This document shows, piece by piece, positions 1 through 15,377 of a stretch of DNA of 64,000 nt. Every line of letters begins with the position of its first letter. Positions within the stretch are counted from its first letter, which is position 1. Source of the stretch: Pacificibacter marinus (GTDB lineage: Bacteria > Pseudomonadota > Alphaproteobacteria > Rhodobacterales > Rhodobacteraceae). Position numbers and translations under genes: made by a program. Location: the NCBI RefSeq assembly GCF_018860505.1, contig NZ_JAHKPU010000019.1, positions 124,001 through 188,000 on the forward strand. The letters are read 5' to 3'. The notes under the pieces were generated by a model, which made no database searches, was not told the DNA's origin, and saw only the letters and a list, made by a program, of their open reading frames with translations.

Positions 1-285
1 CACAACCGGAATGCCAGCCCCAAGGCCCATTCGCGCCAAAGGCTCAACTGACGCCCGCAGGCCGGAATTTTCCATGACCAATGCTGCACGCTGTCCGGAC
101 AAAAATATACCGCCGCAAATCGCAGCGCCTTCGCCCTCATTCGTCACCTGAATCGTGCGGATATCTGGATCAGCATCGAGTGCGGGGTAAAGTTCTTTGA
201 ACAAACTATCGGGGAGATAACACACCAGCGTCACCCCTGCCCGTTTCAGCCCGCGGATCACTGCATCGACGGCACTTTGTTTCAT
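1..285 (-). CDS. Thiamine-pyrophosphate enzyme, N-terminal part (sulfopyruvate/phosphonopyruvate decarboxylase-like)
   Basis: Partial gene running off the left edge; about 95 N-terminal residues are visible. It opens MKQSAVDAVIRGLKRAGVTL, followed by the PDS and NEGEGAAICGG segments typical of the Pyr domain of ThDP enzymes; the glutamate in NEGEG is where the ThDP-activating Glu sits. The short N-terminus resembles alpha subunits of two-gene decarboxylases (ComD/sulfopyruvate or phosphonopyruvate type) rather than full-length acetolactate synthase, but the substrate cannot be read from this fragment. Two adjacent ATGs exist (288 and 285); 285 sits better behind the GGAGGG at 290-295. It lies about 100 bp downstream of the LysR gene on the same strand, so it may be in that transcription unit or its target. 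Confidence 0.75.
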   Translation of the reverse strand, partial: MKQSAVDAVIRGLKRAGVTLVCYLPDSLFKELYPALDADPDIRTIQVTNEGEGAAICGGIFLSGQRAALVMENSGLRASVEPLARMGLGAGIPVV

Positions 286-386
286 CATTCCCTCCGGTTG
301 ATAGCTCGATTTCTATCAACCTGTCAGGAAAAAAATGTTCCCAAAAGACGGTAATTGTAGAACGAGTTGTTTCACTCAGCGCAACA

Positions 387-1322
387 CTAGTCGCGTGCAG
401 TTTCGCGCATCGCTTCAAGAGTAGACGTCAAAACATCCGCCAGCGCCTGAGCCGCTTCAGACACTTCACCTTTCGGGCGCGACACAAGCGTCAGCCGCCT
501 TAAACTTAAACCAGGATCAGACAAAGGAATAAAAGTCAGTTGTCCGCGCGCAATCTCGGCCTGCACTCCCATTTTGGTCTGCAAAATAGTGCCTAAACCA
601 CGGGTCGCGAGATCAATCATCAAGCCGATAGAGTTGGTTTTTGTCCGACGTGAAAATTCAACAAAAGCCCCAGAAAACATTTGCTCGACTGAACTTCCAA
701 GCGTCAAAGACCCGTCAGACAGGATGACCCGTTCGCCTGAAAGATCGTAACTTTTCAACTTGCCACGCAACTTCGTAAGCGGGCTGCCGGGGGAGACCAA
801 GACTCCAAGCGGCAGCGAAATTGATGTCAATCTACGCGCATTACGCGGCACGCGCACATCAAATGCTAGCGCGAGATCCGCCTCACCTTGATGCACCAAA
901 TCAACCGCATTTTGTGACCCCACAACCTGTATATCGACACTGATTTCTGGATGGCGCACCCAAAAACCGGCAAGCACATCTGTCAGAATCCCTCGCGACG
1001 CACTTTCAATGACAGCTAAAGTGACCGTGCCACGGCGCAGCCCTTGCAGGTCACCGATTTCCGTCACAGCGCGGTTCATTTCCCCCGTTGATTGCTTGAT
1101 GTGATGCTCAAGCAATTCCCCTGCAGAGGTCAGCCGCAATCGTTGTTTGGTGCGGTCGAACAGAGGTGTGCCAAGGTCTTCTTCAAGTTGCTTGATCGAA
1201 CGAGAAATTGAAGACGGCGCAACATTCAACGTCAATGCCGTCTGACGGATGGACCCCAAGCGGGCCACCAAAGAAAAGTGGTAGACGCGAGACGAAACAA
1301 GACCGAGGCGATGTAAATCCAA
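387..1322 (-). CDS. LysR-family transcriptional regulator
   Basis: A 311-residue LysR-type regulator. The N-terminal winged helix (residues about 5-65) contains ARLGSIRQTALTLNVAPSSI and QLEEDLGTPLFDR, the classic LTTR helix-turn-helix followed by the linker helix. Residues about 90-300 form a periplasmic-binding-protein-like effector domain. The start is TTG (1320-1322) with AGGAAA about 6 bases upstream; no in-frame ATG fits. It is the fourth gene of a leftward run (acylphosphatase-like, Rieske, GST, LysR) with only 24 bp after the GST gene, so it is probably an autogenous regulator of this operon and perhaps of the divergent purine operon. The effector is unknown; a methylated purine or its degradation product is a guess from context. 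Confidence 0.9.
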   Translation of the reverse strand: MDLHRLGLVSSRVYHFSLVARLGSIRQTALTLNVAPSSISRSIKQLEEDLGTPLFDRTKQRLRLTSAGELLEHHIKQSTGEMNRAVTEIGDLQGLRRGTVTLAVIESASRGILTDVLAGFWVRHPEISVDIQVVGSQNAVDLVHQGEADLALAFDVRVPRNARRLTSISLPLGVLVSPGSPLTKLRGKLKSYDLSGERVILSDGSLTLGSSVEQMFSGAFVEFSRRTKTNSIGLMIDLATRGLGTILQTKMGVQAEIARGQLTFIPLSDPGLSLRRLTLVSRPKGEVSEAAQALADVLTSTLEAMRETARD

Positions 1323-1346
1323 TAGCTTTCCTAAAAGTAGTCTGGC

Positions 1347-1967
1347 CTAATGATAGTCTGGAATGCCCGGCATCGTGATGAAACCTGGCAGCAGGCGTAT
1401 TCTGCGCGCCCAAAGACGTAGTGCAGGAAACTCATCATGATCAAGATTAAAATCTCGACTGAGTGCGAAAGCTGGGAACAGCGCGAGGTCAGCCAAACTG
1501 GGTGCATCCCCCGCAACGAAGTTTGCGCCACGCAAAGACTGCCGAGTCAAATGATCGTCCAGAATACGAAACAGCGTTCGCGCCTGCGCACGTAATTCAA
1601 CGACATCCCCCGTCGCATCCAGCAAGGCGACAGCGCGTGCCTGCACCGCAACAGCAAGATCGTCACAAGCGAATCCCAACCAATCCATCATCTGAGCGCG
1701 GTCCTTTGCCTCATCAGGTATGAATCGTTTATCGATATCGTGTTCCGCTACGTAAATTAGGATTGCTGAAAGATTACGCAAAACGAGTGCATTGTCCTCT
1801 AAAATAGGCAGGCGACCCATCGGGTTTAGTTTTAAATACTCAGGGGATTTTTCTTCTGCGCCGGGAAAGGCGTCCACATTGATCAGCTCCAGCGCCACTT
1901 CAGCACAAGACGCGACCAAACGAACCCGATAGCAATTCTCAAAAAGATCATAATTATGTAAAATCAT
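1347..1967 (-). CDS. Glutathione S-transferase-like protein, candidate NdmE-type partner
   Basis: A 206-residue GST-fold protein. The thioredoxin-like N-terminal half includes the cis-proline segment NPMGRLPIL (around residues 48-56) and a degenerate ESxAI motif, LRNLSAIL; the helical C-terminal half carries the usual N-capping region around LADLALFPAF. The N-terminal catalytic Ser/Tyr position is not clear (FENCYRVRL), so it may not be a true transferase. It overlaps the Rieske gene by four bases (ATGA), implying translational coupling. In the caffeine N7-demethylase a GST homologue (NdmE) is a structural partner of the Rieske-less oxygenase NdmC and of NdmD. Here a GST is coupled to a lone Rieske protein and a Rieske-less oxygenase lies nearby, so I infer the same scaffold role. 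An ordinary detoxifying GST is the alternative. Confidence 0.85.
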   Translation of the reverse strand: MILHNYDLFENCYRVRLVASCAEVALELINVDAFPGAEEKSPEYLKLNPMGRLPILEDNALVLRNLSAILIYVAEHDIDKRFIPDEAKDRAQMMDWLGFACDDLAVAVQARAVALLDATGDVVELRAQARTLFRILDDHLTRQSLRGANFVAGDAPSLADLALFPAFALSRDFNLDHDEFPALRLWARRIRLLPGFITMPGIPDYH

Positions 1968-2632
1968 GTCACGACCTCCAGCTCTTCGATGCTACGTCGT
2001 AGCTCCTCGCTCCAATCAAGAATAGATTCCCTGACATCGCCCGCACAGCCTTTAGGCACAGTAATATGTAGCGCACATTGGGCATTTGAGATGGGCTGAA
2101 TACCAATGGTCATCGTGGCACCATCACGATCCAAAATCATGACATTCGCGACAGCACCATCAGCACAGCCCTGCTTGCGCAAAACGGATAAAACAGTCGC
2201 ATATGAGGCATCAATGTATACGGATTTCACCCCTTCCATAGCAGGTAAACCTGCGAAGCTGCTCTCATCTGACCCAAGCGGCAATTGCGCCCAAATGAGC
2301 CCCCCTGCCTCGGCCACACCATATCGGGCAACACAGATGGATTTTGGAACCTCAACCTCAGGATGGGCAGGGATATATTGGCACGTGCCGCTCTGATCAT
2401 ACTCCCAACCATGATAAAGGCAGGTAATGTGGTCGCCTCGCACGAAGCCAAAGCTCATTTTCATTCCACGATGGGGGCAACGATCTTCCCAAGCATGCGC
2501 AACGCCAGAGGAGTCACGCCAAACGACGATCTCTGCGCCTTTGGCAACCACGCCAGCAGATGTGCCCGTTTCGATCATATTTGATAGGGCGATCGGAACC
2601 CATTGTGACAGAACTTCCACGGTCTGCGTCAT
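1964..2632 (-). CDS. Stand-alone Rieske [2Fe-2S] protein resembling the N-terminal module of NdmD
   Basis: A 222-residue protein. Residues 10-118 form a Rieske domain with both ligand pairs, C52-x-H54 (CPHRG) and C71-x2-H74 (CLYHGW), and the following GTCQYIPAHPE strand. Residues about 130-220 form a small second domain ending SIEELEVVT. There is no mononuclear-iron motif (N-x2-D-x2-H-x4-H), so it is not an oxygenase alone. Size and layout match, from memory of that family, the extra Rieske module at the N-terminus of the N-demethylase reductase NdmD, but without NdmD's flavin and plant-ferredoxin domains. Expected role: relaying electrons to a Rieske-less oxygenase. It overlaps the genes on both sides by ATGA; AAAAAGGA precedes its ATG. 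The reductase that would feed it is not in the window. Confidence 0.88.
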   Translation of the reverse strand: MTQTVEVLSQWVPIALSNMIETGTSAGVVAKGAEIVVWRDSSGVAHAWEDRCPHRGMKMSFGFVRGDHITCLYHGWEYDQSGTCQYIPAHPEVEVPKSICVARYGVAEAGGLIWAQLPLGSDESSFAGLPAMEGVKSVYIDASYATVLSVLRKQGCADGAVANVMILDRDGATMTIGIQPISNAQCALHITVPKGCAGDVRESILDWSEELRRSIEELEVVT

Positions 2633-2892
2633 AAAGACATTCCTTTTTTTACCTGCATTTCGTCACGCCAAACATCGTGAACAACGCAATCTTGTGGCCC
2701 AAGGCTCATAGCCATTTCAAATGCATCCACCAAATCTGGCTGCCCTGTCACGATCATTTTCGCGCAGGTGTCACTTTGGTCCTGCGTGACAAGTTGCAAC
2801 GACAAGCGCCGCGCGCGGTGTTCTGCAAATTCAAGGAAACTCGCAGCAAGCAAGTCGCCCTTAAATGTAAATTTGACCTGTTCGATTTTCAT
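2629..2892 (-). CDS. Small acylphosphatase-fold protein lacking the catalytic residues
   Basis: An 87-residue protein, first gene of the leftward operon. The pattern (MKIEQVKFTFKG, then a helix SFLEFAEHRARRLSL, a strand AKMIVTGQPDLVDAFEMAM, SLGPQDCVV) follows the acylphosphatase fold, including the late GP turn. The signature G-V-Q-G-V-G-F-R loop is not kept: the position of the catalytic arginine reads ASFLEF, and the catalytic asparagine segment (W-V-R-N) is absent. I therefore expect a binding or assembly role rather than phosphatase activity. The start at 2892 is preferred over the longer frame from 2967, whose extra 25 residues are hydrophobic and cysteine-rich and unlike the family. It overlaps the Rieske gene by four bases, so it is probably a functional partner. 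Confidence 0.6.
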   Translation of the reverse strand: MKIEQVKFTFKGDLLAASFLEFAEHRARRLSLQLVTQDQSDTCAKMIVTGQPDLVDAFEMAMSLGPQDCVVHDVWRDEMQVKKGMSL

Positions 2893-3248
2893 ACGTGCGC
2901 ACAGCATCCCACAAGAAAGCCCCAAGAAACACAGAGGCAACGACTGAATATTTAATATCAGAATCACTTAGAGAGGCGAAATCCACGACCGTCAAGTGTT
3001 GTTTTGAAAGCAACATTGAGGTGCAAACTTAGCCTCTATTCAGCATCATTTACTTTTGGAAACGTGGTGTCACACACAAAGATGAGACGGACAAACCGCC
3101 TTGTCGCTGACACGAATTTCGAGGTTTGGCTGCTGGCGCATCACGCTGGCACCCAAACATTCCATCTAAGCGCGTTCAGTCGCACCCTCATCCCTAATGG
3201 TCGCACAAAGGGGATGAGGCAGCATAAACAGATAAGAGGTTTTTCCTT
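2893..3248. promoter_or_regulatory. Divergent promoter region between the Rieske/GST operon and the purine importer operon
   Basis: About 355 bp with no credible gene, separating two divergent operons, so it must hold both promoters and probably the LysR operator. Seen directly: a short inverted repeat TGTTG/CAACA with a nine-base spacer (2999-3017) and a longer stem-loop at 3186-3219. I could not identify a -35/-10 pair with confidence. The short rightward frame at 3004-3252 has no ribosome binding site or family resemblance and is not called. Confidence 0.5.
3186..3219 (+). promoter_or_regulatory. Stem-loop in the leader of the BMP importer operon
   Basis: Perfect nine-base arms, CCTCATCCC (3186-3194) and GGGATGAGG (3211-3219), with a 16-base loop, ending 29 bases before the ATG of the BMP gene and followed by AAGAGG. 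No T-tract follows, so it is not a classical terminator. It could be an operator, an mRNA stabiliser or part of a leader switch; it does not match the purine riboswitch layout (no three-way junction visible). Confidence 0.4.
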
Positions 3249-4373
3249 ATGATTTCGACCAAATCCCTATCCCGCCGCGGCTTTTTGAACATGGGTGCCG
3301 CAGCTGGCGTAGGCCTTGTTTTGCCTAAAACCGGCCTTCTCCAGCCTGCACATGCAGCAGCCCCACTCGCCCCGGTCGCAGAAGAAAATGCACATATCGC
3401 GTTTGGGCACACTGGCCCGACCTCTGACGAGGGATGGACTTGGGCGCATGACCAAGGCATGAAAGCTGTCGAAGCGGCATTCCCAAAACTGCGCACATCT
3501 TATGTGGAAAGCATCCCCTATTCAGCGGATGCAACACGTATTTACCGTCAATTCGTGGCCGATGACGCCAACATGGTCTTCGCCACATCGAATTACGGAG
3601 ACTTCCTATATGACGTCGCAAATCGTGCGCCAAACGTGGCATTCTATGAATGTGACGGCCGTAGCGCACTCGACAATCTTGGCACTTACTATGTATCGCA
3701 TTGGTACCCATCCTACATCGCGGGGATCGCTGCGGGGGCCATGTCACCCTCAGGAAAATTGGGTTATGTTGCATCTTTCCCTGTGCCTTCCGTCTATTCT
3801 GGCACCAATGCTTTCCTTATGGGCGCACGGACGGTCAACCCCGAAGCAACACTGCAAACCATCGTGATCAACAGCTGGTTTGACCCGCAAGCGGCCACAC
3901 AGGCCGGCACAGCTTTGATCGATAATGGCTGTGACGTACTCTTTGGTATCATGGATGAAGCGGGATATTTGCAGGTTGCAGAAGAACGTGGCGCTAAAGC
4001 CGTCATGTGGAACACCGATTTGCGCCGCTATGGCCCTAACGCCTATATTTCATCAATCATCGTGGACTTTAACGCCTTTTATGTCGAACAAGTCCGCCGT
4101 CGTCTTGCTGGCGAATGGACCCCGACCCAAGACCTTTTGCCCTTCGGCAGTGGCGTAGATGTCGACGCATGGGGCGACACAGTTCCTGCGGATGTCGCCG
4201 CAAAAGCCGATGCCGTCAAAGCGTCAATCATGGACGGGTCCTTCAACCCGTTCGTAGGCGAAATCAAGGACAGCAAAGGCAACGTCAAAGTCGCCAAAGG
4301 TGAAACCATGACCGAGCAAGAGCTCTATCATTGGAATTGGTCCATCGAGGGCGTGTCAGGTTTGGACACGTAA
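3249..4373 (+). CDS. BMP-family ABC transporter substrate-binding lipoprotein-like protein (nucleoside/purine uptake)
   Basis: A 374-residue periplasmic binding protein of the BMP (PnrA/Med) family. The N-terminus has a twin-arginine type signal, SRRGFLNMGAAAGVGLVLP, followed by an A-x-A cleavage region (AHAAAP). The mature part shows the family segments HIAFGHTGPTSDEGW, FATSNYGDFLYDVA and GIMDEAGYLQVAEERGAKAV. BMP proteins deliver nucleosides or related bases to a two-permease importer, and the next three genes complete exactly such a system. There is no lipobox cysteine, so it should be soluble and probably Tat-exported. The stop is 2 bp from the next start. Downstream deaminases suggest purine nucleobases or nucleosides as cargo, but the ligand cannot be fixed from sequence. 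Confidence 0.9.
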   Translation: MISTKSLSRRGFLNMGAAAGVGLVLPKTGLLQPAHAAAPLAPVAEENAHIAFGHTGPTSDEGWTWAHDQGMKAVEAAFPKLRTSYVESIPYSADATRIYRQFVADDANMVFATSNYGDFLYDVANRAPNVAFYECDGRSALDNLGTYYVSHWYPSYIAGIAAGAMSPSGKLGYVASFPVPSVYSGTNAFLMGARTVNPEATLQTIVINSWFDPQAATQAGTALIDNGCDVLFGIMDEAGYLQVAEERGAKAVMWNTDLRRYGPNAYISSIIVDFNAFYVEQVRRRLAGEWTPTQDLLPFGSGVDVDAWGDTVPADVAAKADAVKASIMDGSFNPFVGEIKDSKGNVKVAKGETMTEQELYHWNWSIEGVSGLDT

Positions 4374-4375
4374 AG

Positions 4376-5950
4376 ATGGCGCGGCAAACCGCATCGATCC
4401 AACAGCGTCTCGGGTTAGCACCCGGGACGCCACCTATTTTGGCGCTGAAAGGTGTCAGCAAATATTTCCCTGGTGTTATCGCCAATGAAGATGTCGATAT
4501 CGATGTCTATCCCGGTGAAATTCACGCCCTTTTAGGGGAAAACGGCGCGGGCAAATCAACCTTGATGAACATCGTAACCGGCATCTACAAAATGGATGCG
4601 GGCGAAGTGATCATTGAAGGCCATGCGCGTGATTTTTCGTCGCCCACGGATGCGATAGAAGCGGGCATTGGCATGGTACATCAGCATTTCAAGTTGGTGC
4701 GCGCGTTTACCGTGGCTGAAAACATTCACCTCGGATGGCCTCAAACCCCGAAACGTATTTCAAAGCGCCACTTAGAAGCCCGCACTCACGCACTTGCACA
4801 AAATTTAGGCTTGGCGGTGAAACCCGAAGCCATCGTCGCGAACCTATCCACGGGCGAACAACAACGCGTCGAAATTCTCCGCGTTCTTGCGCGTGATGCC
4901 AAACTTCTTATCCTTGACGAACCCACCGCCGTGTTGACCCCCAAAGAAGCGCGCGAGCTTTTTACAGCTCTGCGAGCATTTGTGGCGCGAGGGAATGCGG
5001 TTATTTTTATCTCGCACAAACTCGACGAGGTGATGGAGGTGTCCAACCGCGTGACTGTATTGCGCGGCGGTAAAAAAGTGGCAACGGAATGGACGGACAC
5101 TTGCACAGAAAATAGCCTTGCGCAGTTGATGGTCGGACGGGAAATCGTCTTGACCGAGACACAAAAGAAAACAGCGCCTTCAATCAAAACCGCTCCCATT
5201 CTTAATCTGTCAGATATCAGCCTGACGACAGATCAGGGAACGGTCCTGAACAACATATCGTTTGATCTGGCTGCAGGCGAGATTCTTGGCATCGCAGGGA
5301 TTGCCGGCAATGGGCAACGCGAATTGACTTACGTGATGTCCGGTCTTTCCACGCCCAGCTCTGGCATACTGACCCTTGATGGCGAAGATGTCACAAAAGC
5401 TGGCGCACGGACCATGGCGCAAATGGGCATCGGCCACATCCCTGAAGATCGGCTTCATTCCGGCATGGCCCCGACCTTATCGATCACGGACAACGCTGTT
5501 TTACGTGAATATGCTCAACCGCCATTGACGCGCAAAGGCTGGTTCTCACCGAAAGGTGCAGCCAATTTGGCTCGTGAAATTGCGAAGGTCGCCGATGTGA
5601 TGGTGCCTGATTTCAATATGCCTGCACGCAATCTGTCCGGCGGCAATCAACAACGGCTTGTTGCGCGGCGCGAAATGCGGATTGCAGAAAAAATATTGAT
5701 CGCCGCATACCCTTCTCGTGGGCTCGATGTTGGCGCGATCAATACGATGATGCGCTATTTCATTGAGTTGCGCGACCAAGGCGTCGCCGTGGTTCTTATT
5801 TCCGAGGAACTGGAAGAATTGATGAATTTCTCTGACCGAATTGCCGTCATGTTTCACGGTGAAATCATGGGCATCATCCCCACAAAAGACGCCGATGTAG
5901 AACAAATCGGTTTGATGATGGGCGGCACACGGCAGGAGGATCTGACATGA
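4376..5950 (+). CDS. Nucleoside/purine ABC transporter ATP-binding protein (two ATPase domains)
   Basis: A 524-residue double ATPase of the sugar/nucleoside (RbsA/YufO-like) class. Domain 1 has Walker A GENGAGKS, the LSTGEQQRVEI signature and Walker B LLILDEPTAVL; domain 2 has a degenerate Walker A (GIAGNGQREL) and signature LSGGNQQR, as usual for this class, in which the second site is weakened. The ATG at 4376 directly after the BMP stop is preferred; an upstream in-frame ATG at 4331 lies inside the BMP gene. It energises the two permeases that follow and overlaps the first by ATGA. Confidence 0.93.
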   Translation: MARQTASIQQRLGLAPGTPPILALKGVSKYFPGVIANEDVDIDVYPGEIHALLGENGAGKSTLMNIVTGIYKMDAGEVIIEGHARDFSSPTDAIEAGIGMVHQHFKLVRAFTVAENIHLGWPQTPKRISKRHLEARTHALAQNLGLAVKPEAIVANLSTGEQQRVEILRVLARDAKLLILDEPTAVLTPKEARELFTALRAFVARGNAVIFISHKLDEVMEVSNRVTVLRGGKKVATEWTDTCTENSLAQLMVGREIVLTETQKKTAPSIKTAPILNLSDISLTTDQGTVLNNISFDLAAGEILGIAGIAGNGQRELTYVMSGLSTPSSGILTLDGEDVTKAGARTMAQMGIGHIPEDRLHSGMAPTLSITDNAVLREYAQPPLTRKGWFSPKGAANLAREIAKVADVMVPDFNMPARNLSGGNQQRLVARREMRIAEKILIAAYPSRGLDVGAINTMMRYFIELRDQGVAVVLISEELEELMNFSDRIAVMFHGEIMGIIPTKDADVEQIGLMMGGTRQEDLT

Positions 5951-7002
5951 ACTTGATACGCCTTCAACGCATGCCAATTGCCACGCCGCGCGTGGCCTTT
6001 GCCTTTCGGGTGGCTTCGGTGCTTTTAGCCCTTTTCACCACTGCGATTGCCTTGTCTATAAGTGGGCGCAGTCCGGTTGCTTTGGGAGCAAAGGTCATTT
6101 CCTCAACCTTTGGATCGTCTTTCGGCCTAGAGGATCTGGCCCTTTTGTTTTCGCCTTTGGTCTATTGCGGCCTATCCGTTGCTGTCGCCTTACGCATTGG
6201 TGCGTGGAATATCGGCGCAGAGGGCCAGTTCAATTTCGGAGCATTTTGTGCAACGGGTGTTGCCCTGTTTGTACAGGGGCCGACTTGGGTCATCCTACCT
6301 TTGATGGCCCTTGCGGGAATGATCGGCGGCGCGTTGTGGATTTTGATCCCGACATTGGCGCGTGCTTATGCTGATGTTTCAGAACTTATCACAACGCTTT
6401 TGATGAATTTCGTTGCCATATTATTGGTCTATTGGGTCGCGACCGGCCCATGGCTTGATCCGTCGGGCATGGCTTTGGCGACAACGTCACGGCTGCCTGT
6501 GTCTGTGCCTACCCTTTGGGGGATTGTGCATTGGGGGCCTCTCGTCGCTATCTTTCTGGCAATCGCATTGGCGCTTTTTGTGACCTATACACGTTGGGGA
6601 TACGAAGTGCGGATCGCAGGCGCCAATCCGGGGGCAGCTCGCTATGCAGGTATGCCGGTAAAAACCCAATTGATCGGCATCATGCTGTTGTCCGGCGCGA
6701 TTGCAGGGCTTGGCGGCATGATGGAAGTGGCTGGGACGGTGGGACGCTTGCAAGGCGGCATATCAAACAATTACGGCTATATCGGCATTATGGTTGCCGT
6801 GCTCGCACGGGCTGCTCCCATCGGGGTCTTGGCCACAGCATTTTTCATGGCGGTTCTTTTGAATGGCGGCATTGTTTTGCAGTCACAAGGGTTAACCACT
6901 CATACTGTTCTGGCTGTGACTGGCCTTATCCTTTTGTACGCTGCCATCGGTGACGAAATGGCCCATTACAAAATTCTACACACCAAAGCGAAGGACATCT
7001 GA
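5947..7002 (+). CDS. Nucleoside/purine ABC transporter permease 1 (BPD_transp_2 family)
   Basis: A 351-residue integral membrane protein with about nine to ten hydrophobic segments. Family landmarks are ALRIGAWNIGAEGQFNFGA and YAGMPVKTQLIGIMLLSGAI, typical of the larger permease (YufP-like) that partners with BMP proteins. AGGAGGA lies just before the start, which overlaps the ATPase stop by four bases. It forms the heterodimeric channel with the next gene. Confidence 0.92.
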   Translation: MNLIRLQRMPIATPRVAFAFRVASVLLALFTTAIALSISGRSPVALGAKVISSTFGSSFGLEDLALLFSPLVYCGLSVAVALRIGAWNIGAEGQFNFGAFCATGVALFVQGPTWVILPLMALAGMIGGALWILIPTLARAYADVSELITTLLMNFVAILLVYWVATGPWLDPSGMALATTSRLPVSVPTLWGIVHWGPLVAIFLAIALALFVTYTRWGYEVRIAGANPGAARYAGMPVKTQLIGIMLLSGAIAGLGGMMEVAGTVGRLQGGISNNYGYIGIMVAVLARAAPIGVLATAFFMAVLLNGGIVLQSQGLTTHTVLAVTGLILLYAAIGDEMAHYKILHTKAKDI

Positions 7003-7003
7003 C

Positions 7004-7939
7004 ATGGATATTATTGCAGGTCTGATTCAAACCGCATTCCTTGCGGGAGGCGTCTTAGCCTTAGCGGCTTTGGGGGAAGTTTTGGCCGAACGTGTCGGGG
7101 TTGTTAATCTTGGCGTAGAAGGCTTGATCGCACTGGGCGCCATGTCTGCTGTGGCGACAGTTGTCAGCACTGGGTCTGCATGGCTTGGGCTGTTGGTGGC
7201 GCTTTTTGTGGGATTTTGCTCTGGCATGATTTTTGCAACCGCAACGGTGATTATACGCGCCAATCAAATTCTGTGCGGTCTGGCCCTGACTTATATCGGA
7301 ACAGGCATGGCCGCCACGATCGGCAAACCGTTTTCCGGCTCGCCCGTACCCGTAACATTTGAAGATCTTCACATTCCGTTCCTGTCCGATTTACCATTTT
7401 TCGGCCGTGCATTTTTCAGCCACAACATATTGGTTTATGTGATCTTTCTCGCGCTTCCCTTAGCATTGCATTACATGATGTTTTACACGCGCCATGGCTT
7501 GAATATGCGGGCCGTTGGCGAAAACCCTGCGGCGGCGGATGCTGCGGGTATTTCTGTGATAAAAATGCGGTTTTGGTACACATCCTTGGGGTCTGCATTG
7601 GCTGCAGGGGCTGGGGCCTATCTCACTTTATCCTTCGTTCCAAGCTGGTCGGAAGGCGTGGTCGCGGGGCGCGGCTGGATTGCTGTTGCTCTTGTTATTT
7701 TTGCCGGTTTCAGACCCATCAATGCCGTGCTGGCAGGGTTGCTCTTTGGCTTTGTCACAGCGCTCGGTTTTACCGGTCAGGCCCGCAACTGGCCTATCGC
7801 ATCCTCAATATTATCAATGTTGCCTTACCTCGGGACGATGGCTTTGATGATTTTGCCTGTGATGACATGGCAACGCATGCGCCGCCTTATGGCCGCCCCT
7901 GAAGGCATCACTGCGCCTTATTATAGAGACCAAAGATGA
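7004..7939 (+). CDS. Nucleoside/purine ABC transporter permease 2 (BPD_transp_2 family)
   Basis: A 311-residue membrane protein, the YufQ-like second permease, with about eight to nine membrane segments and the landmarks GVVNLGVEGLIALGAM and MRAVGENPAAADAAGI. The ATG at 7004 lies 1 bp after the stop of permease 1; the longer in-frame start at 6950 would sit inside that gene and is rejected. It overlaps the deaminase gene downstream by ATGA, so transporter and catabolic enzyme are translated as one set. Confidence 0.92.
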   Translation: MDIIAGLIQTAFLAGGVLALAALGEVLAERVGVVNLGVEGLIALGAMSAVATVVSTGSAWLGLLVALFVGFCSGMIFATATVIIRANQILCGLALTYIGTGMAATIGKPFSGSPVPVTFEDLHIPFLSDLPFFGRAFFSHNILVYVIFLALPLALHYMMFYTRHGLNMRAVGENPAAADAAGISVIKMRFWYTSLGSALAAGAGAYLTLSFVPSWSEGVVAGRGWIAVALVIFAGFRPINAVLAGLLFGFVTALGFTGQARNWPIASSILSMLPYLGTMALMILPVMTWQRMRRLMAAPEGITAPYYRDQR

Positions 7940-9354
7940 CATCTATTCTTTTCAAACACATCTCTCATCTAGCCACATTTGACGGGCCTGACCGTGATGC
8001 AGGTACGGAAATTTCTGATGGGTTTATCCTGATCCACGACAATATCATTATCGCTTGCGGCCCCATGGCAGACTGCCCCGAGGGTGCAGAGCGCACCGCA
8101 GATCGTGTGCTTGATCTGTCGGATCACATAGTGATGCCAGGCATGGTCAACACGCATCATCATTTTTACCAGAACCTCACCCGCGTTATGGTTCAAGATG
8201 ACGAATTGTTTGTCTGGCTTAAAACGTTATATCCGATTTGGGCACGGCTGGATGATCGCGCGATGGCCACAGCATCGCGTATGGCGATGGCAGAACTGAT
8301 CATGTCGGGCTGCACAACAAGCTCGGATCACCAATATATCATGCCGAACGATTGCACCCTCGACACGCCCATCCGTGTGGCACAGGAATTGGGCATGCGC
8401 TTTCACGCAGCACGCGGCGCAATGAGCCGTGGCGAAAGCAAAGGTGGATTGCCACCAGACAGCTGCGTAGAAGAGGAAGAAGATATCCTGAAAGACGCCG
8501 AACGCCTGATCGGCACCTATCACGACATGTCAGATCATGCGATGACGCGGATCGTCCTTGCGCCATGTTCGGCTTTTTCTGTCACGCAAGGTTTGATGAA
8601 AGATGCGGCGGCTTTGGCGCGCACCTATGAAGGGGTTCGACTACATTCTCACATCGCCGAAGTCCTGTCCGAAGAAGAATACTGCCTAGAAACCTATGGC
8701 ATGCGATCTGTGGCATATGCGGAAAGTTGCGACTGGTTGGGGCCGGATGTCTGGTTTGCCCATTCCATTTTCCTAAATAACTCAGAAATCAAAACCTTTG
8801 CCGAAACAGGCACCGGTGCAACCTTTTGCCCCTCCGCCCATATGCGCTGCGGGCTTGGCATCATGCGCGCACGCGAAATGTTGGATGCAGGGGTCACAGT
8901 CGGGCTTGGCGTAGATGGGTCAGCTTCAAACGATACCTCCAATATGTTTTCCGAAGTCCGTTTTGCGCAGTTCTTGCAACGTGTCGCGCCGGATCGCTAC
9001 TTATCTGAGACACCGGGGGGACGCGGCGGATTTGGTGGCACACCTGCGGCGATGTCGGCGCGCGAGGCGCTTTGGATGGCGACACGCGGCGGGGCAAAAA
9101 TATTAGGCCGTGATGACATTGGACAGATTGCACCGGGAAAATCCGCCGATTTGATCGCCGTCAAGCGCACACAGCTTGGCATGGCCGGCACGCAGCGTGA
9201 TCCCTTGGCTGCACTTGTTATGTGCGGGCCATTTCATGTGGATTACTCTTTCATCAATGGTGTCCCTGTGATCGAACAAGGGGCCTTTACCCGTCTGGAT
9301 ATTGATGCAGCACTGCGCGACCATGCCCAAACAATGGATCGAATATACGCATGA
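7936..9354 (+). CDS. Amidohydrolase, 8-oxoguanine deaminase / hydroxydechloroatrazine-hydrolase type
   Basis: A 472-residue amidohydrolase of the TrzN/AtzB/8-oxoguanine deaminase branch (cytosine/guanine deaminase superfamily). Metal ligands are visible: MVNTHHHFYQ (H-x-H), LHSHIAE, WFAHSIFL and GLGVDGSASND (the final Asp). Family knowledge: related enzymes hydrolyse the 2-amino group of 8-oxoguanine to give urate, or remove N-alkylamines from triazines. It is coupled by ATGA to the purine importer and followed by the oxygenase 10 bp later, which makes an aminopurine substrate likely. 8-oxoguanine is the default call; a methylated guanine is an alternative. Confidence 0.85.
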   Translation: MTSILFKHISHLATFDGPDRDAGTEISDGFILIHDNIIIACGPMADCPEGAERTADRVLDLSDHIVMPGMVNTHHHFYQNLTRVMVQDDELFVWLKTLYPIWARLDDRAMATASRMAMAELIMSGCTTSSDHQYIMPNDCTLDTPIRVAQELGMRFHAARGAMSRGESKGGLPPDSCVEEEEDILKDAERLIGTYHDMSDHAMTRIVLAPCSAFSVTQGLMKDAAALARTYEGVRLHSHIAEVLSEEEYCLETYGMRSVAYAESCDWLGPDVWFAHSIFLNNSEIKTFAETGTGATFCPSAHMRCGLGIMRAREMLDAGVTVGLGVDGSASNDTSNMFSEVRFAQFLQRVAPDRYLSETPGGRGGFGGTPAAMSAREALWMATRGGAKILGRDDIGQIAPGKSADLIAVKRTQLGMAGTQRDPLAALVMCGPFHVDYSFINGVPVIEQGAFTRLDIDAALRDHAQTMDRIYA

Positions 9355-9364
9355 GGAATGCCCT

Positions 9365-10246
9365 ATGACTCAGACACTGGACAAAGCCACACTTGATCAA
9401 TGGTATTGCATTCAAAACCTCGCGGATATTCCCAAAACCGGTGTGCGCACGCGACTTTTGGGTGTTGATCTCACCATTTCCGGTGATAGCAGCGCCCCTA
9501 TGGTTACAGCATGTGAGGACACAGGCAATCGGCCCCTGCCTGTGCGCCAAAGGTACGGTTATCTTTGGTCGACATTGGGCCTTCCAAACACAGACGTACC
9601 GGATATTCCTGAAGCCGAAGAAGCCGATCGTCGCTATGTGCCTTGCGGGGCTGTCAAAGTCCGATCTTCTGCGCCACGAGTGATTGAAAACTTTTTAGAC
9701 ATGGCGCATTTTCCGTTTGTCCACAAAGATATATTGGGATCCGAAGCCCATTCCGAAGTCGAGAAATACAAATGTGAAATCAGGCGTGACGTTGATGAAG
9801 TCTGGGCAACAGATTGCGTTTTCACCCAACCGCTCGCTGCGAAATCAGCAACAGAGCCCCTGCGCACCGATTACATTTACCGCGTAACCACGCCGTTTAC
9901 GGTACTGTTGTACAAAACCTGCCCCATTTCACAAACACGTTGGGATGTTATCTGCTTGTTTGTGCAACCGATGGAACCGGGTCTGTCTCGTGCTCATCCT
10001 GTGATGTTCTTATTGGATGTCGATAGCAGCGACGCCGACTTAATCGCCTTTCAACAAGTCATCTTTTTACAAGACCGGATCATTCTTGAAAACCAGCGCC
10101 CGCTTCTTTTGCCGTTGGAAGCACGCGTTGAGACACCGACCCGCGCAGATGCCACATCTATCGCCTATCGTCGTTGGCTTAAAGAAAAAGGCTGCGTTTA
10201 CGGCACGACGCTTGGTCCAGCCCTGCCCGAAAATCACGTAGCCTGA
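9365..10246 (+). CDS. Rieske-less non-heme iron oxygenase, NdmC-like
   Basis: A 293-residue Rieske-oxygenase alpha-subunit relative without a Rieske cluster. The mononuclear iron site is intact: N109-x2-D112-x2-H115-x4-H120 in IENFLDMAHFPFVH, with D237 in FLQDRIILENQ as the likely third ligand. Where the CxH/CxxH domain belongs, the chain goes from MVTACEDTGN straight to VRQRYGYLWSTLG, so roughly 60 residues are missing with the fold edges kept. This is the organisation of the 7-methylxanthine N-demethylase NdmC, which takes electrons from the Rieske module of NdmD and needs the GST-like NdmE. The segments DILGSEAHSEVE, LLYKTCP and AYRRWLKEKG also recall NdmC. The start at 9365 follows GAGGAATGCCCT. 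Likely reaction: oxidative N-demethylation (or hydroxylation) of a purine. Confidence 0.85.
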   Translation: MTQTLDKATLDQWYCIQNLADIPKTGVRTRLLGVDLTISGDSSAPMVTACEDTGNRPLPVRQRYGYLWSTLGLPNTDVPDIPEAEEADRRYVPCGAVKVRSSAPRVIENFLDMAHFPFVHKDILGSEAHSEVEKYKCEIRRDVDEVWATDCVFTQPLAAKSATEPLRTDYIYRVTTPFTVLLYKTCPISQTRWDVICLFVQPMEPGLSRAHPVMFLLDVDSSDADLIAFQQVIFLQDRIILENQRPLLLPLEARVETPTRADATSIAYRRWLKEKGCVYGTTLGPALPENHVA

Positions 10247-10254
10247 GACAAGAC

Positions 10255-11604
10255 ATGACACAAATGGACATCAACGACCTACGCGGATGCAAAGTCCTAT
10301 TCTCTGGGTATCACGCACCACAGATCGGCGTGATCGAAGCCTTTCACGACGCGGTTCTAGCACTTGATGAACGCGGCACCATTGTATCTATTGAGGCAAA
10401 TGGGGACCCCAGCGAAGCCGTTAGATTACCCAAAGACTGGATTTTGATCCCTGGTCTCGTTGACTTACACGTCCATGCCCCACAGTACGCTCAACTTGGA
10501 ACAGCGCTGGATGTTCCACTTGAGGACTGGCTGCAAACATACACCTTTCCCTTAGAGGCACGGTTTTCCGATCTGACTTATGCCGAGCATGTGTATTCCA
10601 CCTTGATAGACGATATGTTGGCGATTGGCACAACAACAGCGCTTCATTTCGCAACGGTCCATGTGCCAGCCACACAGCGCTTGGCCGAAATTTGTCTGAC
10701 CAAAGGGCAACGGGCGCTCGTCGGTAAAGTCGCCATGGACGACCCAAATCAATGCCCGCCAGATTACCGTGATGCCTCTGCACAGGCCGCCATCGACGGC
10801 ACCCGCGCTGTGATCGATCACATCAACACCCTGCCTGACAATGACGGCATGGTGTTTCCCGTCATCACGCCGCGTTTCATTCCGTCGTGTACTGATGCCT
10901 GTCTTGAAGGTCTAGGACAGCTCGCGGCAGAAACTGGGGCACATGTTCAAAGCCACATATCAGAAAGCGATTGGCAACATGGCTATGTGCAAGAACGCTG
11001 TGGCTGTTCTGACGCCGAAGCCTTTGAACGTTTTGGCCTTATGCGCGACAATGCTGTCTTTGCTCATGGCACGCATCTGTCAGATACAGACATGGATTTG
11101 ATGGTTGCACATGGCGCAGGCGTGGCCCATTGCCCCCTGTCAAACGCCTATTTCGCGGGGGCTGTTTTTCCGCTGCGGCGTGCTTTGGACAAAGGGCTTC
11201 ATGTTGGTTTTGGCTCTGATATTTCTGGCGGACCATCTGGATCGATCTGGGAAACGGCGCGCATGGGCATCAGCGCGGCACGTATGCGCGAAACAGGTGT
11301 GCAGGCACAGATTGAATCTGAGACCCGCGGCACACATGATCGGCGAATAGATTTTCGCGAGGCGTTTTTCCTTGCCACACGGGGCGGCGGCCAAGCTCTC
11401 GGCTTGCCCGTTGGGTCATTTGAACCGGGCATGAAATTCGATGCCATCGCCATTGATCCGACGCGCCGCGATGGCACTGTACGCATTTGGCCAGACGACA
11501 CGCCGCAAAACCTTGGGGATCTATTGCTGGAAAAGCTTCTTTATACGGTGTCCAAGCCCAACATTGCCTGCGTCTGGACCGATGCGATCAACCGATTAAA
11601 GTGA
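10255..11604 (+). CDS. guaD: Guanine deaminase
   Basis: A 449-residue amidohydrolase. It carries PGLVDLHVHAPQYAQLG (zinc-binding H-x-H and the guanine-deaminase-specific APQYAQ), the LQTYTFPLEARF segment specific to GuaD, HISES (third His), AHGTHLSD (fourth His) and GFGSDISGG (metal Asp). It converts guanine to xanthine with release of ammonia. It is the last gene of the importer-deaminase-oxygenase operon, 8 bp after the oxygenase. An alternative start at 10264 (MDINDL) is possible. The presence of guanine deaminase rather than xanthine oxidase in the operon suggests that the upstream oxygenase yields guanine or xanthine. Confidence 0.93.
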   Translation: MTQMDINDLRGCKVLFSGYHAPQIGVIEAFHDAVLALDERGTIVSIEANGDPSEAVRLPKDWILIPGLVDLHVHAPQYAQLGTALDVPLEDWLQTYTFPLEARFSDLTYAEHVYSTLIDDMLAIGTTTALHFATVHVPATQRLAEICLTKGQRALVGKVAMDDPNQCPPDYRDASAQAAIDGTRAVIDHINTLPDNDGMVFPVITPRFIPSCTDACLEGLGQLAAETGAHVQSHISESDWQHGYVQERCGCSDAEAFERFGLMRDNAVFAHGTHLSDTDMDLMVAHGAGVAHCPLSNAYFAGAVFPLRRALDKGLHVGFGSDISGGPSGSIWETARMGISAARMRETGVQAQIESETRGTHDRRIDFREAFFLATRGGGQALGLPVGSFEPGMKFDAIAIDPTRRDGTVRIWPDDTPQNLGDLLLEKLLYTVSKPNIACVWTDAINRLK

Positions 11605-11608
11605 TTTT

Positions 11609-12631
11609 TTATAAAGATGCGATCGCATGGTCGATATCCGCCGCCCACTCTGTGCGCCATTGCCGTTTTGTTGCATCATCCACCCAAGCATGGTCAATCG
11701 TCGCAAGAACCGAAGCTTTTATATCCTCTGGCGAAAATTTTAAGTCTTCCAGTGCAATCTGATATTCAGCGTTCAAATCGGTCTTAAACATCGGCGGATC
11801 ATCCGAATTGATAGACACCACCAATCCTGCTTCTTTCATGCGCCTGATAGGATGTGATGGAATGGTTAAATCGCGATGTGGCGTGGTGTATTTTGTAGTC
11901 GATGGACAGCAGGTAAACATAACGCCCAAATCCCGCGCTTGCGTCATCAGTTCAGGATCGTCGACAACGTTATACCCATGGTCCAAGCGATCGACCTTAA
12001 GCGTTTCAATCGCTCCACGCACATAAGAGGCAGGGCCAGCTTCACCACAATGCGCGGACAGTTTAAGCCCTTCTTTGCGCGCGCGGGCAAACACCCCTGC
12101 AAAAGGTTCAGGCGGGTACGGTGCCTCATAGTAATCAAGGCCCAATCCAACCAGATCGTCCTCTCGGTTGGCTAGAATTTCGTCCAAATACGCCTCGCCC
12201 CGTTCAGGGCCTAGCTCTCGGTTCATTCCAGGGATAATCAAAGACGTCACACCGAAATCGGTCAATGCGTCTTTCATTCCTGCACGAATACCTTTGAATT
12301 GCCGTGCAAATGGAACCCCATCATGCGCATGAGGGCTGATGAAAAACTCAATATGGCGTGCCCCGCTGTCGGTCGCCCCTTTAAGCATCTCATATGTTAT
12401 ACGCCGAAAGTCATCGACCTCGACGACGGACTTTGAGATGGCGGAATAGACTGTGAGAAACGCATCAAGGGTCTCATAGTCATATAAGTCTTCAGGTGCA
12501 TGACAGGGCGGCAAAGCAACATTGTTTTTGCGCGCCAGTTCAAACGCCGTTTTGGGATGAATAGCCCCTTCGAGATGCAAATGAAGCTCAACCTTGGGAA
12601 GCGCTTTGAGGCGTTGATACATCGTCATCAT
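11609..12631 (-). CDS. add: Adenosine deaminase
   Basis: A 340-residue protein with the adenosine deaminase signatures: LPKVELHLHLEGAI (zinc H-x-H), LSAHCGEAG (zinc His with catalytic Glu), DRLDHGYNV and SINSDDPPMF (zinc Asp pair). It converts adenosine or deoxyadenosine to inosine. The start at 12631 has AAAGGA nine bases upstream; the longer frame from 12712 adds a non-homologous, cysteine-rich stretch. It is convergent with guaD, only 4 bp between the stops, completing the purine-deaminating set of the island although separately transcribed. Adenine deaminase of the ADE type is a less likely alternative. Confidence 0.92.
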   Translation of the reverse strand: MMTMYQRLKALPKVELHLHLEGAIHPKTAFELARKNNVALPPCHAPEDLYDYETLDAFLTVYSAISKSVVEVDDFRRITYEMLKGATDSGARHIEFFISPHAHDGVPFARQFKGIRAGMKDALTDFGVTSLIIPGMNRELGPERGEAYLDEILANREDDLVGLGLDYYEAPYPPEPFAGVFARARKEGLKLSAHCGEAGPASYVRGAIETLKVDRLDHGYNVVDDPELMTQARDLGVMFTCCPSTTKYTTPHRDLTIPSHPIRRMKEAGLVVSINSDDPPMFKTDLNAEYQIALEDLKFSPEDIKASVLATIDHAWVDDATKRQWRTEWAADIDHAIASL

Positions 12632-13037
12632 CTCATCATATCCTTTAGCCATTCGATCCATGTAGAATTTGCACAAAAACAGCACGCGACTGCATCGTAT
12701 GAATTGTCTCATTCACAAATTATATTGGAAAGGAGCGCCGCCTCAAATGTCGTCAAAAATTTATTATTTTTCCCACGCGCCTTGTAATTCATCACCTGTG
12801 AACGGGACGTTATACAAGGTATAGCATTTATGGCGGCGGACGTCGGATTGGGACACGACTTCGCAGGATTGAACGAAGCATTTGACTAAACAGCACTATA
12901 CATACACGATCAGACCGCACCGCTGCGTCCCATAAGTTGGCATTTGTACGCCAGAACCATACTCGGATATTAATGTTCGATTAAGACAGGTTGATCTTGC
13001 ACACATGGGTGCCCGCCCTTTGCCTTCCAAGAATTTT
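12632..13037. other. Intergenic region upstream of add, no gene recognised
   Basis: About 400 bp between the add start and the 3' end of the exporter operon. It should hold the leftward add promoter. A small palindrome TATAC-AAG-GTATA lies at 12811-12823, roughly 180 bp upstream of add. Open frames here are shadows without ribosome binding sites. No terminator with a T-tract is visible after the exporter operon. Confidence 0.4.
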
Positions 13038-14159
13038 CTACCGTCTGTTGTGGGGCAGCCGAGAAAGCGCGACGGCCAAAGCCGAATAGACAACCACAAG
13101 AACAATCTGCGTCTGTATTGCTTTGGCCACGTCCTGCGCAGTGGCCCCCATTTGATCCACTGCAACAAAGGCAGAAATGGCCGTGGATGACGGAACAAGC
13201 AATGATATAGTGCGCAGATGATCAGGGATCATTTCAACAGGCCATGAGATGCCCGATAGAAAGAACAACGGCATCCCGATCACCACAAGAAAAAATACAA
13301 CCCCTTCACGCCAAGGTATGGCCATCGCGATGGCAAATCCCATTGCAATACAGGCACAGATAAACGGAACAGCGATCAAAAATAACGTCACCAGATCGCC
13401 AGTACGCGGAATGCTATAAAGATAAGGGATCAACATCTGCGTGAACGCAACCCAGATCATATACAGACCGAAATAGGCCGCAATCGTAGCCCACAAACGT
13501 CTCCCAGCTGGCGGCTTACGCCCCGCATGCAGCAGCCCGATCCCCATCAATAAGGTTTGCTGCAAGATCAAGACAAACGCCGCAGGAATAACATAGCTGG
13601 CATAGCCGCCCTGTGGATTGAAAACCGAAACATTTGTGACAGTGACGGGCGACAGCATCGTGCGCGCCGTGCTGTCATCGATACCTTGTGCAGTGAGCCG
13701 CGCATAATTCACCTGTGCTCCCATCGTTCCCGCAACCGTCGCCACGGCTCGCATAACATTGGAATAGATCAACAGATAGCTGCCATCACTATAGGCCGCC
13801 ACGGGCGCAGGACGGCTGGCAAGGATATCTGCTTCAAAGCCAGCAGGAATGACGACAATTCCGTACACATCACGTCGATAAAAAGCATCCCGTGCGGTTT
13901 CCATATCTGGCGCGGACATAGTCACATCAACCAAATCGGTCACGTCCATTTCACGCACAAGGGTTCGGCTGGCAGTCGACTTGTCCTGATCAATCACGAC
14001 GACAGGAACATCACGCAACACCTCGCCAACATAAGGTTGCGGGTAAAGGACGCTATAAATCAAAATTCCGACGATCATCGTGGATTTGGCACTGTCATCC
14101 GCCAAAAGCGTCCGAATGACCCCAAATACCTCGGCAAGGAAATGACGCAGCTTTATCAT
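13038..14159 (-). CDS. ABC-2 type export permease (YbhR/YhhJ-like), second copy
   Basis: A 373-residue membrane protein with the ABC2_membrane_3 layout: one N-terminal membrane helix, a large periplasmic domain (residues about 50-190, VVVIDQDKSTASRTLVREMD) and five C-terminal helices ending SAFVAVDQMGA. Together with the preceding permease it would form a heterodimeric export channel for drugs or hydrophobic compounds. It overlaps the upstream permease by ATGA. No ATP-binding motif is present in the protein or anywhere in this operon. Confidence 0.85.
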   Translation of the reverse strand: MIKLRHFLAEVFGVIRTLLADDSAKSTMIVGILIYSVLYPQPYVGEVLRDVPVVVIDQDKSTASRTLVREMDVTDLVDVTMSAPDMETARDAFYRRDVYGIVVIPAGFEADILASRPAPVAAYSDGSYLLIYSNVMRAVATVAGTMGAQVNYARLTAQGIDDSTARTMLSPVTVTNVSVFNPQGGYASYVIPAAFVLILQQTLLMGIGLLHAGRKPPAGRRLWATIAAYFGLYMIWVAFTQMLIPYLYSIPRTGDLVTLFLIAVPFICACIAMGFAIAMAIPWREGVVFFLVVIGMPLFFLSGISWPVEMIPDHLRTISLLVPSSTAISAFVAVDQMGATAQDVAKAIQTQIVLVVVYSALAVALSRLPHNRR

Positions 14160-15373: not shown

Positions 15374-15377
15374 TGGC

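Follow-up and report, generated by a model that had tools for sequence, protein, structure and literature searches.

The closest described relative of the genes reported here is NdmCDE, the N7-demethylase of the caffeine pathway in Pseudomonas putida CBB5. Excerpts of one report describe NdmCDE as a Rieske-less oxygenase with a Rieske domain outside the oxygenase and a glutathione S-transferase (GST) homologue, in a purine context, and call it very unique among Rieske oxygenases (PMC4408171); an excerpt of another describes the structure of the complex as unsolved (PMC13237722). We analysed a 64,000-nucleotide stretch of the Pacificibacter marinus genome (contig NZ_JAHKPU010000019.1, positions 124,001 to 188,000; "the window" hereafter means this whole stretch) that carries a cassette with the same elements: a Rieske-less oxygenase (Ox1), a Rieske protein outside it (Rsk) and a GST homologue, again in a purine context. 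In NdmCDE, the Rieske domain is fused to a reductase, whereas Rsk is the product of a separate gene (222 amino acids) with no fused or adjacent reductase. The window additionally encodes an acylphosphatase-like protein (AcP), and two different oxygenases would share one Rsk. Judging from sequence, the window system may work like NdmCDE, as a variant and not as NdmCDE proper.

The nearest solved sequences and folds are those of SxtT/GxtA and NdmA/NdmB, which are full-length enzymes with both metal sites in one chain, unlike Ox1 and Rsk. HpxD, the molybdenum-independent xanthine hydroxylase, is another purine oxygenase from this superfamily, with about 30% identity, but it is full-length and its gene adjoins one for a VanB-type reductase. 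A precedent for a Rieske oxygenase on two polypeptide chains is the chlorophyllide a oxygenase of Micromonas, a eukaryotic pigment enzyme; the available part of the report mentions no GST or AcP partner (PMC9615114). In the open-access literature searched, we found no description of a cassette with a standalone Rieske gene or of its AcP partner.

An oxygenase and its putative Rieske partner on separate genes

The cassette proper consists of four genes:

9365..10246, plus strand: Ox1, Rieske-less non-heme iron oxygenase (NdmC-like), 293 amino acids; Pfam VanA_C and KshA_C
1964..2632, minus strand: Rsk, stand-alone Rieske protein, oxygenase domain reduced, resembling the N-terminal portion of NdmD-type fusions, 222 amino acids; Pfam Rieske, E 4.6e-23
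1347..1967, minus strand: GST-like protein (NdmE-like), 206 amino acids; Pfam GST_N and GST_C
2629..2892, minus strand: AcP, acylphosphatase-like protein, 87 amino acids, upstream of Rsk; profile match to PDB acylphosphatases, best E 1.8e-5

Ox1 has a catalytic domain of the vanillate-demethylase type. Its iron ligands are H115, H120 and D237, and D112 occupies the place of the bridging Asp; all four residues were unchanged across 24 aligned homologues and again in 125 of 125 Rieske-less homologues. By contrast, the Pfam search gave no Rieske match in Ox1 and the Rieske cluster motif is not present. A retained 2-His-1-carboxylate site without the cluster motif is the pattern of an NdmCDE-type oxygenase, and the alignments and predicted model indicate that Ox1 has kept the two-His, one-Asp iron site, and that the portion of its Rieske domain that would bind the [2Fe-2S] cluster is gone.

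Rsk shows the reverse condition. Its cluster motif (CxH..CxxH) is complete, and its predicted model aligns over nearly the full length with complete Rieske oxygenases, so that it has both the [2Fe-2S] ligands and the predicted fold of such an enzyme. We did not find a mononuclear iron site in Rsk: the region is deleted in the alignment, and no invariant set of His and Asp residues matches it. Alignment and model thus point to a protein that has kept the cluster and the rest of the fold and lost the iron site. NdmD-like fusions and standalone Rsk proteins have in common a Rieske domain followed by a degenerate oxygenase tail, and the cluster motif was present in all aligned standalone Rsk proteins except that of locus L125, a 98-amino-acid piece at the locus edge. 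The Rsk gene shares 4 bp with each adjoining gene, positions 2629-2632 with AcP and 1964-1967 with GST; these overlaps suggest that the minus-strand genes are translationally coupled.

The two remaining proteins may be pseudoenzymes. Where GSTs usually have what we take to be their glutathione-binding motif, Glu-Ser, the window protein has Asn-Leu; the Ser was retained in 14 of 52 GST-like homologues, and the Leu in the window protein is not what a catalytic GST would have. AcP matches the acylphosphatase profile, whereas the Arg and Asn that we presume to be catalytic in acylphosphatases were each aligned in 2 of 48 homologues, and neither is in the window protein. A longer AcP frame, 2629-2967, is probably over-extended. 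The initial annotation, made from the sequence alone, had proposed a Rieske-less oxygenase, a stand-alone Rieske protein and a GST homologue at the positions listed above, and the genes, the domain matches (both GST domains included), the intact Rsk motif and the missing Rieske match in Ox1 bear it out. It overlooked AcP, which on sequence evidence is the fourth member of the cassette, as well as a second oxygenase (Ox2, below), the continuation of the operon to the left and the lack of a reductase.

Distribution, partners and phylogeny

We searched 295 genomes of the window's family for Rieske-less oxygenases of this type (Ox; E ≤ 1e-20) and for Rsk. Ox was detected in 21 genomes, Rsk in 22 and both in 20 (Fisher p 9e-28). 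Standalone Rsk proteins were clear of other matches (20 genomes, E ≤ 5.1e-28); counted alone, 18 of these 20 genomes had Ox (Fisher p 9e-24). Two fused proteins scored 3.6e-23 and 6.1e-23, too close to ordinary oxygenases (from 2.2e-22) to be separated by E-value; we counted them on the strength of their position next to Ox. Ox occurred without Rsk in G033 (74% complete), and Rsk without Ox in G118, where AcP and Rsk lie at a contig start, and in G124, whose Rsk copy has an internal stop. Among 20 fetched loci besides that of the window, 19 had both Rsk and GST beside Ox (GST in 19 of 20), the Rsk being standalone in 17 and part of an NdmD-like fusion of 569-586 amino acids in two (L044 and L045).

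AcP gave 17 clear matches in the same genomes (E ≤ 2.1e-14; next match 9.3e-10), all at most 400 bases from Rsk. Of the 20 genomes with standalone Rsk, 17 had such a match, as did 0 of 2 with a fused protein and 0 of 273 without Rsk. The three standalone cases without a clear match were G266, G184 and G078; an iterated profile gave a weaker relative at the G266 locus (L041). When we counted every locus where Rsk could be seen (45 standalone, 11 fused, in a sample weighted towards kin of the window and with Rsk matches below 160 bits dropped), AcP was present in 38 of 45 and 0 of 11, respectively, and the GST homologue in 43 of 45 and 11 of 11. AcP therefore accompanies the separate Rieske gene, with exceptions.

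A scan of species genomes revealed relatives in at least 563 genomes; some of these proteins may be full-length. The best 80 comprised 59 from Hyphomicrobiales, 11 from Rhodobacterales, eight from Acetobacterales, one from Rhodospirillales and one without an order, and both operons of the window's island recur among them. Celeribacter baekdonensis and Amylibacter cionae are cultured relatives that carry this island. Genera in which the form is common include Rhizobium, Bradyrhizobium, Devosia, Methylorubrum and Gluconobacter; in R. phaseoli, for example, the gene row reads acylphosphatase, Rieske, oxygenase, GST, amidohydrolase, BMP importer. When the sample was widened to 398 genomes of the phylum, an NdmC-like query found matches in 22 (E ≤ 1e-30); seven of the weaker matches begin only at about residue 55, and L175, the one inspected, is full-length.

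The trees contained 60-odd rows, a chosen part of all Ox found, and loci were thinned before the tree with 14 full-length oxygenases was built. NdmC-NdmD-NdmE-like clusters on P. putida and K. pneumoniae plasmids (L127 and L131) stood in for the CBB5 sequences. We dropped the short Ox of L174, the broken NdmD-like frame of L128, the L125 edge piece and two unrelated Rieske open reading frames, and left L086 out of the NdmD/Rsk alignment only. All 48 Rieske-less rows fell on one side of the tree (100/98; 100% of 200 bootstrap trees), a result on which we rejected a recent deletion from a full-length oxygenase, and Ox1 grouped in one clade with the NdmC-type proteins of fused systems, away from the full-length ones (100/98). 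Nested in the NdmD-like fusion lineages were 33 rows that formed a clade of their own (99/99) and had no fused partner, 27 with known standalone Rsk and six with no Rsk within the stretch examined. Earlier trees with six full-length rows implied one change between the two states; the quick tree was rooted among standalone rows, and the careful tree (71/99) and the Rieske-domain tree (83/73) were rooted among fused rows with weak support. Because the outgroup branches are long, we call the direction probable: the separate Rieske gene probably derives from an NdmD-like fusion. The second oxygenase of Komagataeibacter (L208_Ox_a) has a separate Rieske gene yet falls outside the 33-row clade, so that a second split is possible.

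Taken together, tree placement and gene co-occurrence uphold the reading in the initial annotation of an NdmC/NdmD-Rieske/NdmE-type split oxygenase. Two of the refuting tests that it named came out in its favour: the oxygenase lies outside the full-length Rieske families, and Ox, Rsk and GST occur together across genomes. Its picture of a marine version in which the Rieske module became its own gene fared less evenly. The direction of change is probable in the best-rooted tree, but the event is old and widespread, and the dominance of Hyphomicrobiales among the best 80 relatives speaks against a marine form.

Two plasmids deserve separate mention. Plasmid pPp1290 of P. putida 1290 carries an NdmD-like gene (L128, 12850-14605) whose annotation is in three pieces; the L127 copy encodes 585 amino acids. 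We followed this plasmid as a lead on cytokinins; a literature search on cytokinin breakdown gave nothing relevant. On Komagataeibacter nataicola plasmid pKNA08 from kombucha tea (NZ_CP118673.1; L208, 935-7486) we found two Ox, two Rieske and two GST genes, all separate, in the order NdmA/NdmB homologue, Ox, Rieske, GST, VanB-type reductase, Rieske, Ox, GST. Like the window, these cassettes have separate Rieske, Rieske-less oxygenase and GST genes; unlike the window's island, they have an NdmA/NdmB homologue and a separate VanB-type reductase alongside. AcP was not found among the nine pKNA08 proteins tested with the profile.

The purine island, a second oxygenase and the electron supply

The cassette lies in an island with the following further genes in the window:

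387..1322, minus strand: LysR-type regulator of the island
3249..4373, plus strand: BMP/PnrA-like substrate-binding protein of an importer
4331..5950, plus strand: importer ATP-binding cassette (ABC) ATPase; open reading frame, conserved neighbourhood, named from sequence; start codon uncertain
5947..7002, plus strand: ABC permease 1; open reading frame, conserved neighbourhood, named from sequence
6950..7939, plus strand: ABC permease 2; open reading frame, conserved neighbourhood, named from sequence; start codon uncertain
7936..9354, plus strand: 8-oxoguanine deaminase; NCBIfam NF006055, 575.7 against a curated cut-off of 532 bits
10255..11604, plus strand: guanine-deaminase-like amidohydrolase; 365.7 against a cut-off of 375.4 (just below)
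11609..12712, minus strand: adenosine deaminase family protein, marking the island's right edge; 271 against a cut-off of 216.55

The BMP-type ABC importer (3249-7939) and the family scores of the deaminases agree with the two divergent operons with a purine importer and deaminases that had been proposed for this region. The adenosine deaminase gene also occurs in L047 and L048. A role of the deaminase at 7936-9354 as a pterin enzyme was considered and rejected, as 8-oxoguanine-deaminase entries match it better than 2paj, which we take to be an isoxanthopterin deaminase. Past GST and LysR, the island continues on the minus strand to the left of the window with a two-gene thiamine pyrophosphate (TPP) enzyme resembling sulfopyruvate decarboxylase, a GMC oxidoreductase, an amidohydrolase and the second oxygenase, Ox2; beyond it lie the fused FAD/Mo subunit of an enzyme like xanthine dehydrogenase (XDH), its FeS subunit, an aldehyde dehydrogenase (ALDH) and another amidohydrolase. 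The XDH-like enzyme matches PucD best, below that cut-off. In L004, the XDH-like protein (8354-11485, minus strand; 1043 amino acids) has a PucC-like FAD domain fused ahead of a PucD-like Mo domain, with the FeS subunit separate, and the two-gene TPP enzyme is at 15180-16288 on the minus strand. The TPP pair is 78-94% identical in 23 of 24 Ox2-type loci, better conserved than the oxygenases there.

Elsewhere in the genome, a canonical XDH, a PuuD-type uricase and a glutathione-dependent formaldehyde dehydrogenase each scored above its own cut-off, so that the island appears to feed substrates into the usual breakdown of purines. A riboswitch of family RF03054, whose ligands are xanthine and urate according to an excerpt of PMC7373994, lies beside the Ox2 operon in two of 25 loci searched: L029 (19742-19800, minus strand), in front of a 2-oxoglutarate-type dioxygenase gene (18699-19706), and L093 from Roseibium marinum (12790-12839, plus strand). 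Among the 295 family genomes, 4 of 21 with Ox had this riboswitch versus 7 of 274 without (6 of 274 above the family cut-off; p 0.005 and 0.003, respectively); only that of G116 adjoins Ox. We regard the purine setting of the island as strong.

Ox2 is 53% identical to Ox1 and lies about 4 kb left of the window (G000:C5:119437-120267). Two Ox each were found in three of the 295 family genomes, namely the window's own (G000), G046 and G116. At E ≤ 1e-10, a single Rsk match was present in each of G046 and G116, and four were present in G000, the true Rsk at 2.3e-151 and the others weaker than 1e-15. With two Ox and one Rsk in a genome, both oxygenases would have to rely on the same Rsk. Among the fused systems, S. 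meliloti and L166-L168 have two tandem Ox with one NdmD-like protein and one GST. Ox2 differs from Ox1 at position 230, which was Glu in 27 of 27 Ox2-clade rows; of the 81 other rows not from fused loci, 80 had Gln, and rows from fused loci had Gln (12) or Met (5). In the alignment, this position pairs with an NdmA residue, presumably the one changed in the NdmA 'QL' mutant, of which structures are available. The difference suggests, at the level of sequence, that Ox1 and Ox2 act on different substrates or positions.

Our searches of the island gave no NdmD-like reductase, and matches to the NdmD-like reductase part in the same genome lie near other oxygenases (contigs C8, C24 and C28). Excerpts of the Micromonas report state that the purified two-chain enzyme was active with the non-native reductase VanB (PMC9615114), which by analogy makes a reductase borrowed from elsewhere in the cell plausible. 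Locus L174 of G612 (8622-11572) has an intermediate architecture: a standalone Rieske gene, an oxygenase (short frame) and a GST, followed by a separate NdmD-like reductase frame.

Proposed mechanism and competing explanations

We propose, with a probability of roughly 0.6 for the model as a whole, that electron delivery and scaffolding fall to a single unit, made up of Rsk, the GST-like protein and AcP, which serves two interchangeable Rieske-less oxygenases, Ox1 and Ox2, with N-dealkylation of purines as the likeliest reaction. Rsk would sit in a mixed ring with Ox, at the place of the neighbouring subunit in an ordinary Rieske-oxygenase trimer, which would bring its cluster beside the Ox iron. 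The GST-like protein would keep the parts together, as has been proposed for NdmE, and AcP may assume the scaffold or docking role of the fused reductase in NdmD-type systems, electrons coming from a VanB-type reductase encoded elsewhere. The substrates would be imported purine-like compounds, substituted purines being oxidatively N-dealkylated (N-demethylated) and the released bases finished by the deaminases, the ordinary XDH and the uricase. By analogy, N-demethylation is a likely reaction, and its best circumstantial link is pKNA08, where a cassette lies with an NdmA/NdmB homologue; 7-methylguanine or 7-methylxanthine is one guess among several for the substrate.

Several observations sit uneasily with this model. 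The match of Ox1 residues 1-45 to SxtDIOX is non-significant by sequence (i-Evalue 820), the N-terminal likeness depending on the alignment and the predicted model, and the Ox1 model is poor at 117-130, ligand H120 included. AcP is absent or unseen in seven of 45 standalone loci and lies on the opposite strand, past GST, in Devosia (L112, L121 and L126); one pKNA08 Rieske gene (2814-3347) has Gly in place of the second cluster-motif Cys. The identity of the electron-donating reductase is a guess. Plain N-demethylation offers no evident role for GMC, ALDH, the TPP pair and the XDH-like enzyme, no formaldehyde genes were seen among the island genes, and a xanthine riboswitch was found neither in the window's own genome nor in window positions 1-16000. 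Finally, membership in the family does not imply N-dealkylation, as the superfamily includes C-H hydroxylases (SxtT/GxtA and HpxD).

The same split enzyme could accordingly hydroxylate a C-H bond in the ring or side chain of a purine or pterin and remove no N-methyl group. The nearest solved relatives, SxtT/GxtA, are C-H hydroxylases according to the titles of their reports, HpxD, a relative at about 30%, reportedly hydroxylates xanthine, an 8-oxoguanine deaminase and an XDH-like enzyme suit oxidised purines, and a xanthine riboswitch adjoins two loci. The cell, however, already has a canonical XDH, the Rieske-less clade stands apart from HpxD in the tree and the kombucha plasmid ties the cassette to kin of NdmA/NdmB; we rate C-H hydroxylation as rather unlikely and give N-dealkylation about twice its weight. 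Less likely still is an island for purines with long, cytokinin-like side chains or for pterins, in which the oxygenases would cut or hydroxylate a chain then digested by GMC, ALDH and the TPP pair. Within the stretch examined, these genes accompany 24, 17 and 23 of 24 Ox2-type loci, respectively, many hosts are plant-associated to judge by their names, and Ox2 differs from Ox1 at position 230. Gene content is nevertheless the sole basis of this idea, our search of the cytokinin-breakdown literature gave nothing relevant, cassettes without GMC, TPP or ALDH genes are common, and L029 has Ox2 and GMC without the TPP pair.

The remaining two explanations concern the partners of the oxygenases. 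Instead of a scaffold, the GST-like protein could be a working glutathione enzyme, for example in aldehyde removal: both GST domains are intact, and formaldehyde from N-demethylation is generally known to be cleared as a glutathione adduct. We think this improbable, given that 14 of 52 homologues retain the Ser of what we assume to be the glutathione-binding motif and that the window protein lacks it. Moreover, the available parts of three sources describe NdmE as structural, with no known catalysis (PMC4408171, PMC8055839, PMC13237722). The degenerate oxygenase domain of Rsk might also suggest that Ox1 and Rsk are left over from a full-length Rieske oxygenase that broke apart, or are unrelated neighbours without a joint function. 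This is hardly credible beside iron ligands invariant in 125 of 125 Ox, a cluster motif in every aligned standalone Rsk but the L125 edge piece, a single separate clade of Rieske-less oxygenases and the co-occurrence of Ox with Rsk.

The cassette is real and well supported as a family, and its function is predicted. We put forward tentatively, at slightly less than even odds, a more general view in which Rsk is a catalytically dead Rieske oxygenase turned into a shared electron-delivering subunit, which would serve more than one Rieske-less oxygenase together with GST-like and acylphosphatase-like pseudoenzymes, NdmCDE being the fused branch. If this is true, one carrier would give two different purine-type reactions, and the extra part of NdmD may itself be a dead oxygenase subunit. 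NdmCDE has been called 'very unique', yet at least 563 genomes encode relatives, and where a Rieske gene is visible in the loci sampled it is mostly separate; with this separation, the division of labour could be tested on simple proteins, and AcP adds a fourth candidate partner. By a route that we did not find described in the literature searched, plant- and algae-associated bacteria may be eating purine or pterin compounds.

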